Shown piece after piece: positions 61,841 to 62,664 of a DNA stretch of 64,000 nt. The notes under the pieces were generated by a model. The model ran no database searches. It was not told the DNA's origin and was given only the letters and a program-made list of their open reading frames with translations. Both the position numbers and the translations under genes were made by a program. This DNA is from Oscillospiraceae bacterium (GTDB lineage Bacteria > Bacillota > Clostridia > Oscillospirales > Acutalibacteraceae): NCBI GenBank assembly GCA_015066225.1, contig SVOT01000002.1:310001-374000 (forward strand), in the 5' to 3' direction. Position 1 is the stretch's first letter, and the number at the start of each line of letters is the position of its first letter.

Positions 61841-61916
61841 GCTGATATAGCTCAGGCGGTAGAGTGCATCCTTGGTAAGGATGAGGTCACCGGTTCGAAT
61901 CCGGTTATCAGCTCCA
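61841..61916 (+). tRNA. tRNA-Thr(GGT)
   Basis: The 76-bp gene folds into a standard cloverleaf. Acceptor GCTGATA pairs with TATCAGC. The anticodon stem CATCC/GGATG holds the loop TTGGTAA, giving anticodon GGT. The T arm contains GGTTCGAATCC. CCA is encoded at the 3' end. It has its own promoter and a terminator. Confidence 0.97.
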
Positions 61917-61918
61917 AA

Positions 61919-61953
61919 AAGAAAGACACGATGAAAATCGTGTCTTTCTTTTT
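61919..61953 (+). terminator. tRNA-Thr terminator
   Basis: AAAGAAAGACACGAT pairs with ATCGTGTCTTTCTTT around GAAA, followed by T residues. Confidence 0.9.
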
Positions 61954-61958
61954 GTGTT

Positions 61959-62154
61959 TGTGTCCGCAAGGACACAATATCGTTTTGCAACGTAGTTGCA
62001 AACCTCATTTGACCGTTAGGTCAACATCGTTCCGCTGTGCGCACACAAAACGATGTTACGGCAAAAGCCGTAAACGATGTTGCCTTCGGCAAACAGTGTT
62101 GTGCTTCACACAAACGATGTGGGCTAACGCCCAATGATGTTGCACGGCGTGCAA
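61959..62154. repeat. Mini-hairpin array with conserved 7-bp linkers
   Basis: Nine short hairpins of about 10-18 bp follow each other every 20-26 bp. Examples are TGTGTCC-GCAA-GGACACA (61959), TTGCAAC-GTA-GTTGCAA (61985), TTACGGC-AAAA-GCCGTAA (62056), TTGCC-TTC-GGCAA (62080) and TTGCAC-GGC-GTGCAA (62140). Stem sequences differ, but the linkers are conserved. To the right of about 62046 they read ACGATGT or close variants; to the left they read the complement, ACATCGT or variants. No gene fits, so this fills most of the interval between the tRNA and the XRE gene. Confidence 0.85.
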
Positions 62155-62167
62155 AATATGGTATAGT
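62140..62167 (+). promoter_or_regulatory. Possible promoter within the array
   Basis: TTGCAC and TATAGT have a 16-bp spacer. A transcript from here would contain only a 16-codon frame (62191-62241) before a terminator. The match is weak. Confidence 0.3.
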
Positions 62168-62233
62168 TTACTTACAAATGAGTGATAGCAATGAAAGATG
62201 GTAAGCTTTTTGTTTTGTCTATTTCTAATAATA

Positions 62234-62278
62234 TCCGCATCCCTTGAAATGATTTTTGTCGGGATGCGGAGTTTTTTA
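62234..62278 (+). terminator. Terminator after the array
   Basis: TCCGCATCCC pairs with GGGATGCGGA, followed by a T run on the plus strand. No plus-strand gene ends here, so it may end a small RNA. Confidence 0.7.
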
Positions 62279-62476
62279 TTTTAACCCAAGAATATAATCT
62301 GCTGACACGTTATAATATTTGCAGAGTGCGATAATGTGTCTTACGGGTATTTCGTTTTCGCCTTTTTCATAGCGAGAATAAACCTGTTGGGTTGTTCCTA
62401 AATAATCGGCGATTTCCTTTTGGGTTTTATCGTTATCTTCTCGTAAGTCCCGGATTATTACAATAAAACTTTTCAT
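62276..62476 (-). CDS. XRE-family transcriptional regulator
   Basis: This 66-residue protein is a single helix-turn-helix domain of the Cro/CI (XRE) type: QKEIADYLGTTQQVYSRYEKGENEIP, then LCKYYNVSADYILGL. It has an AAGGAG site before the ATG. Two palindromic sites lie in the divergent region upstream. Small XRE proteins often come from mobile elements, and remnants of such elements are found nearby. Confidence 0.9.
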   Translation of the reverse strand: MKSFIVIIRDLREDNDKTQKEIADYLGTTQQVYSRYEKGENEIPVRHIIALCKYYNVSADYILGLK

Positions 62477-62558: not shown

Positions 62559-62664
62559 TATTATTCGCGGTAAACAGATAATTAATACCAAAAGCAAATC
62601 GAGGTTTGCATTTTTCGTGTGTGTGACTTCGGTTGCACACTTTTTTGTTTTAAGGAGGGTAAAT

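Follow-up and report, generated by a model that had tools for sequence, protein, structure and literature searches.

The array of small hairpins behind a tRNA gene in this 64,000-nucleotide stretch of an Oscillospiraceae genome (the window) probably represents the conserved 5' part shared by a family of small mobile cassettes. The array family looks like a set of mobile DNA cassettes of uncultured gut bacteria that lie behind tRNA genes and usually carry a gene for a 23S rRNA intervening-sequence protein (IVP). The proposed order of parts is terminator, mirrored hairpin array, promoter, IVP gene and, often, one variable gene, and the cassettes would insert directly behind the CCA of tRNA genes (once of a tmRNA gene), leaving the tRNA intact. 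The window has a terminator and mirrored array directly behind a tRNA CCA, a promoter-like pair and the start of an IVP gene, of which only a stub (62191-62247) is present in place of an intact PF05635 gene. As part of the same explanation, the window copy is more probably than otherwise a remnant from which IVP and whatever followed it have been lost.

All parts of the window unit lie on the forward strand. The host gene on its 5' side encodes tRNA-Thr(GGT) (61841..61916; ARAGORN and Rfam RF00005) and is the sole Rfam match in the window above its own cut-off. A terminator-like hairpin with 18-bp perfect arms (61915..61954) is probably part of the unit, and its 22-nt core, AGACACGATGAAAATCGTGTCT, is also found 5' of arrays in three other loci, where the tRNA is tRNA-Cys or tRNA-Leu. 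The left half of the array comprises hairpin 1 (61958..61977), whose 5' arm TTGTGTCC could alternatively pair with the array centre, and hairpins 2 (61984..62002) and 3 (62009..62024). The latter two were recovered by the perfect-hairpin search and covary in an alignment of relatives (A1, below), and linker ACATCGT lies 3' of hairpin 3. The centre (62031..62049) looks, on the basis of A1, like a decayed form of TCCGC-loop-GCGGACACAAA, because many relatives read this sequence at that place. The right half (62050..62154) contains five hairpins with the linkers ACGATG, ACGATG, ACAGTG, ACGATG and ATGATG, which begin at 62050, 62074, 62093, 62114 and 62134, respectively. Right linkers are of the ACGATG type and left linkers of the CATCGT type, and the linker positions given in the first-pass annotation are correct (ACGATGT at 62050, 62074 and 62114, ACATCGT at 62024, and ATATCGT at 61977). 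A promoter-like pair, TTGCAC-16-TATAGT (62140..62167), recognized from sequence, has its -35 box inside the last hairpin. The IVP gene stub (MKDGKLFVLSISNNIRIP*, 62191..62247) was placed by alignment to locus L081; window DNA from approximately 62151 to 62222 aligns to the promoter and IVP start of that locus with a score of 44 (shuffled maximum, 21).

Eight perfect hairpins (stems of ≥5 bp) were found in 61955-62160, compared with a mean of 1.3 and a maximum of 5 in 500 dinucleotide-preserving shuffles, none of which reached 8. The first-pass annotation described nine hairpins, nearly all perfect; eight of the nine are indeed perfect, but the central ninth, TGTGCGCACA, is weak (4 bp). It also bounded the feature at 61959..62154, where the array does lie, but the feature is larger, extending from the terminator at 61915-61954 through the promoter-like pair to the end of the gene stub at 62247. 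Immediately to the right of the unit is a small ORF on the reverse strand (62276-62476) with, by eye, an XRE-like helix-turn-helix. Its candidate orthology with the helix-turn-helix gene at the unoccupied site L296 was dropped, as blastp gave no match. A leader-like stretch at 62590-62653, common to L291 and L296 (83 to 88% identity over 56 to 65 nt), lies by eye upstream of genes.

Copies elsewhere, for which the first-pass annotation proposed a search, do exist. Two more close copies are present in the same genome, behind tRNA-Ala and tRNA-Cys, and array matches turned up in 12 of the 60 genomes examined and, within the genus, in 7 of 22; both counts include the own genome. Arrays lie behind approximately 10 of the 27 transcription-terminal tRNAs of the own genome by our reading, but only two of them have IVP next to the array, which weighs against the cassette proposal. 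Beyond the array, loci L010 and L013 encode an intact protein matching PF05635 (23S_rRNA_IVP; E = 4e-26 and 1e-25, respectively) and TIGR02436 (four helix bundle protein). One relative, 2rld, has a solved structure (E = 2e-25). The named close relatives, among the best 80 of 112, belong to uncultured Clostridia and Oscillospiraceae, many from the ruminant gut. A record titled Lentisphaeria (L098) encodes an IVP 88% identical to the Clostridia query, reflecting either transfer or a binning error. With the own genome counted, IVP homologues occur in 54 of 120 family, 71 of 147 order and 29 of 149 phylum genomes.

Arrays are associated with IVP genes well beyond these loci. The 158 IVP hits yielded 142 distinct upstream regions after regions of <200 nt or with identical last 150 nt were dropped, and an array was called where ≥5 perfect hairpins lay within 320 nt upstream of IVP. 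This threshold was reached in 114 of the 142 regions, in 6 of 1,420 shuffled regions and in 24 of 319 windows downstream of IVP. The hairpin count is a proxy, as 88 of the 114 arrays have a clear, mirrored linker class and 26 do not, and the loci are mostly from metagenome assemblies. Regions with <5 hairpins were left out of the mismatch, cargo, promoter and tree counts. Arrays are present in 71 of 74 loci of close IVP relatives (from the best 80 of 112), in 25 of 27 family-genome loci, in all 4 early loci, in 14 of 27 order loci and in none of 10 phylum loci. These set-by-set counts confine the array to one IVP lineage rather than the whole protein family. A promoter-like pair (≤3 mismatches) was found in 79 of the 114 arrays (shuffled, 71 of 570), and its -35 box overlaps one of the last two hairpins in 26 of those 79.

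Linkers fall into classes that are mirrored between left and right halves: CATC/GATG with CTTC/GAAG (window type, 56 arrays), GATG/CATC (11), GAAG/CTTC (9) and the rarer GATAT/ATATC (8), GAAAT/ATTTC (3) and TTATAT/ATATAA (1). On an IVP tree of 88 rows, which left out the 26 arrays without a clear class and is a quick tree of few columns (14 of 85 inner branches starred), linker class required 6 changes, against a minimum of 5 and 30.6 after shuffling (none of 200 shuffles was as low). The isotype of the neighboring tRNA required 41 changes (least, 17; shuffled, 48.8; 18 isotypes, 64 rows) and was still more clustered than expected by chance (0 of 200 shuffles as low). Among IVP pairs with ≥85% identity, 91 of 116 are located at different tRNA isotypes. 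Linker class thus tracks the IVP tree and the tRNA neighbor hardly does. The linker adjoins IVP, and co-inheritance alone could therefore couple them. Another reading of this coupling is that linkers are duplex operator sites spaced by roughly two helical turns, to which IVP or some other protein regulating the IVP promoter binds, with the palindromic spacers secondary. Such an arrangement is consistent with the spacing of the right linkers (24, 19, 21 and 20), a promoter at the array end and a linker class that follows IVP, but it explains neither perfect palindromic spacers with double changes nor arrays without IVP, and we consider it unlikely.

The location of the units supports the proposal of a mobile cassette. 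A tRNA end lies ≤450 nt upstream of 77 of the 114 arrays, the other 37 having no annotated tRNA in that range. A terminator was detected in 81 arrays (not in the remaining 33), and CCA lies ≤6 nt before it in 71 of them, compared with 8.7% of random positions in the same loci. The proportion was 57 of 62 with an annotated tRNA and 14 of 19 without. One array (L045, 2098-2458) is directly preceded by a tmRNA gene with a tRNA-like CCA end, and some lie behind a protein gene or its terminator (L048, L313 and L317). Identical terminator cores occur behind different tRNAs, and the 3' flank of tRNA-Tyr is polymorphic within the genus. At the site occupied in the window, tRNA-Thr(GGT), most relatives lack an array. 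In L293, an insert of approximately 795 bp after the CCA comprises a terminator, an array and a 181-amino-acid ORF and is followed by a terminator 79% like that of L295, leading to sequence 89% like L296. In two other relatives, an insert with an IVP gene and no hairpin array lies directly behind the same tRNA gene. That of L288 (approximately 500 bp) is followed by a terminator that is 82% like the one in L297, then by sequence 77% like L289, and that of L291 (approximately 505 bp) by sequence 87% like L292, with no recognizable terminator there. Each of these occupied/unoccupied comparisons is a composite of several relatives. Comparison of the L293 insert with those of L288 and L291 indicates that the array unit and the IVP-only units share one insertion point, and the filled and empty sites, as compared in sequence, point to insertion directly after the tRNA CCA. 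A further idea is that the hairpins serve the tRNA gene as a series of additional terminators or insulators, which the position of the array behind the tRNA terminator might suggest. No T-tract follows any hairpin of the window array, however, most same-site relatives do without an array, and arrays go with IVP more than with the tRNA, making this idea hardly credible.

Two candidate right ends of the units were rejected. An inverted T-arm was found in 3 of 77 IVP units (shuffled expectation, 0.0) and is not a general right end, and of GTTCGTAACAGC, tried as a right-end motif, the form TTCGTAACAG matched at four distinct places in the fetched loci, of which two were unit ends (L013 and L219). 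A separate kind of repeat also occurs at tRNA ends in the own genome, where 15 of 39 distinct tRNA genes are followed by exact repeats of their final 18 nt (e.g., L244, L256, L275 and L285). These repeats are mostly units of 147 to 184 bp with a terminator, often with an inverted T-arm and hairpins, and several are tandem. They occur in series with arrays at tRNA-Tyr and tRNA-Arg(ccg). Locus L229, from another genome, has two tandem array units behind tRNA-Tyr, each right after a copy of the tRNA 3' end. It is these tandem repeats, and not the array, that resemble the rtT repeats of Escherichia coli tyrT; RtT gave no match up to an E value of 0.5 in five loci scanned.

Stem pairing was analyzed in alignment A1, which consists of 46 left domains from window-type arrays, one from the window and 45 from relatives, and excludes arrays that lack a start and centre of the window class, differ in length or are almost identical to others. 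Paired cells amounted to 92.3%, compared with 76.3% after shuffling and 28 to 44% in slid controls. Both sides had changed in 197 cells (shuffled, 59.5; 0 of 500 as high). Stem covariation, suggested for checking by the first-pass annotation, is thus strong. The same annotation took near-perfect stems to imply selection on pairing. Perfect stems and covariation are both present and make such selection plausible, but it stays unproven because a mutational process can likewise yield perfect palindromes. Template switching corrects quasi-palindromes, and a process of this kind, rather than function, might keep the palindromes perfect. It would account for perfect stems and for double changes with few GT intermediates and little strand bias. 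It would leave unexplained the constant TT..AA stem feet, conserved linkers and architecture seen in A1, as well as the association with IVP and tRNA ends, and such a process is quite improbable as the full explanation.

A further proposal of the first-pass annotation, that complementary left and right linkers fold the array into a branched structure, received little support. At the innermost linker pair, 72.1% of A1 cells are standard pairs, compared with a shuffled mean of 72.9%, in an alignment where approximately 10 of 46 rows are out of register at this pair, which works against detecting linker pairing. Central linkers are complementary in 30 of 53 arrays (permutation, 25.0; reached in 372 of 10,000). 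The presence of CATC on the left is associated with that of GATG on the right (Fisher P = 0.0025), and the corresponding association of CTTC and GAAG is unclear (P = 0.10). A different long-range pairing, between TTGTGTCC at the left start and GGACACAA at the centre, is kept in 99.2% of cells, in pairs that hardly vary and so leave little variation as a test. It excludes hairpin 1, and the window has one mismatch in it.

Sister arrays with other linkers match an RNA motif in Rfam. The Gut-1 (RF01706) table entry lists it for the human gut only, among likely non-coding RNAs (Weinberg et al. 2010, PMC2864571). Its 77-position model spans about half of an array, and half of a sister array is already catalogued as Gut-1, a motif of no known function. 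At an E value of up to 0.1, 18 places in the own genome match, 14 of them over the cut-off (a covariance-model match of ≥50 bits), and none of 14 control genomes has a match over it. The window array is absent from the 18 places, and 61900-62300 gives no match to Gut-1 up to an E value of 1. Array loci also gave Rfam matches to mir-255, lactis-plasmid and others, which were set aside because all were under their cut-offs. The array could accordingly be a structured non-coding RNA like this filed relative, transcribed downstream of the tRNA or from a promoter of its own. The filing of Gut-1 as a likely non-coding RNA in that table and the above-cut-off matches of sister arrays are in keeping with this, as are the covariation and a strong predicted RNA fold (61940-62170, z = -3.74; 0 of 200 shuffles equally good). 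In contrast, the model matches the left and right halves of sister arrays on opposite strands, and the array sits between a terminator-like hairpin and the IVP promoter.

Stem mismatches also argue against an RNA. One-mismatch hairpins (106 distinct, from 112 arrays with 731 perfect hairpins) have GT:AC:other ratios of 37:23:46, with GT slightly ahead of AC (binomial P = 0.09), and 178 GT and 140 AC were counted among 984 mismatches in control DNA. In 146 tRNA acceptor stems, excluding genes with <5 Watson-Crick acceptor pairs or without CCA, the ratios are 67:2:1 (37:23 versus 67:2, Fisher P = 2e-7). Chance hairpins dilute the array set, as the 46 other mismatches indicate. Within A1, GT:AC is 7:6 in hairpin 2 and 6:2 in hairpin 3 (joint, 13:8 versus 67:2; P = 9e-5). 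Hairpin 1 (6:0) and the centre (23:4), both partners of the alternative pairing, have an excess of GT, which is consistent with an RNA. Overall, a sense-strand RNA is not supported by a GU excess, and the structured-RNA explanation is rather doubtful. Since G-U is not enriched among the stem mismatches as it is in tRNA stems, we favor a mainly DNA-level role for the array, as far as sequence can indicate one and short of proof. The interpretation in the first-pass annotation (a repeat built by hairpin gain, a small RNA or a DNA-structure target) is partly supported: other copies and stem covariation exist, and sister classes match Gut-1.

Cassettes often carry a further gene. A next ORF of ≥55 amino acids lies near the IVP stop in 50 of the 114 units, 63 have none and one is too short to judge. 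The start overlaps as ATGA in 20 of the 50, which represent 43 families, a few of them doubtful. Twenty cargo proteins were hand-picked from the 50 for a Pfam scan, and 17 had a match (E up to 0.001) and 3 did not. Matches include six GNAT, two AAA, and NUDIX, methyltransferase, P-loop kinase-like, nucleotidyltransferase, WapI and sulfite reductase families; those to MazG, InPase and DUF6304 fall under curated cut-offs (E up to 0.001). Variable small genes (GNAT, NUDIX, methyltransferase and AAA) beside a foldable DNA element recall integron gene cassettes. Integron cassettes are defined by the integron integrase and the attC site, whereas array units are located at tRNA 3' ends. REPIN/RAYT systems have a GTAG foot and a Y1 transposase (RAYT) as neighbor. 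Short hairpins, a conserved foot and inverted orientation are common to REPINs and the array, but the array has ACGATG/CATCGT linkers and class variants instead of GTAG, hairpins of free sequence and IVP as neighbor. The 23S rRNA intervening sequences with IVP/S23 proteins (PF05635, TIGR02436; PMC4990558) share the protein family and are likewise small elements at a stable RNA gene. In contrast, arrays lie behind tRNA genes (the window unit behind tRNA-Thr) and not in a 23S rRNA helix, and units additionally contain a mirrored array and a promoter and, in many cases, another gene. In the open-licence literature, searched by title and abstract, neither IVP nor Gut-1 was joined with tRNA ends; the parts are known separately, and those searches yielded neither the unit nor its site nor a link between it and IVP.

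A mechanism can be proposed for the cassettes. The hairpins may act as DNA, in cruciform or single-stranded form, the class-specific linkers may be the recognition sequence, and the IVP four-helix-bundle protein may bind them. No recombinase or reverse transcriptase was noticed among the genes of the units, and a putative moving enzyme would act in trans. A more speculative and less likely reading is that this is a new class of mobile cassette able to recognize almost any tRNA at its 3' end (18 isotypes, once a tmRNA) via shared features, the CCA end or T arm. It would use folded hairpin arrays with class-specific linkers as a handle for the Avd-like IVP protein and carry accessory genes singly from one tRNA locus to another, perhaps through tRNA-primed copying, in which case insertion immediately after CCA would be accounted for.

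The association places the orphan RNA motif Gut-1 in a genomic context and gives the IVP/S23 family a testable partner and site. It points to tRNA 3' ends as sites at which very small gene cassettes insert widely in gut Clostridia. If the proposal is true, the binding targets of IVP proteins, and the way in which small elements lacking a visible recombinase are moved, would become directly testable.
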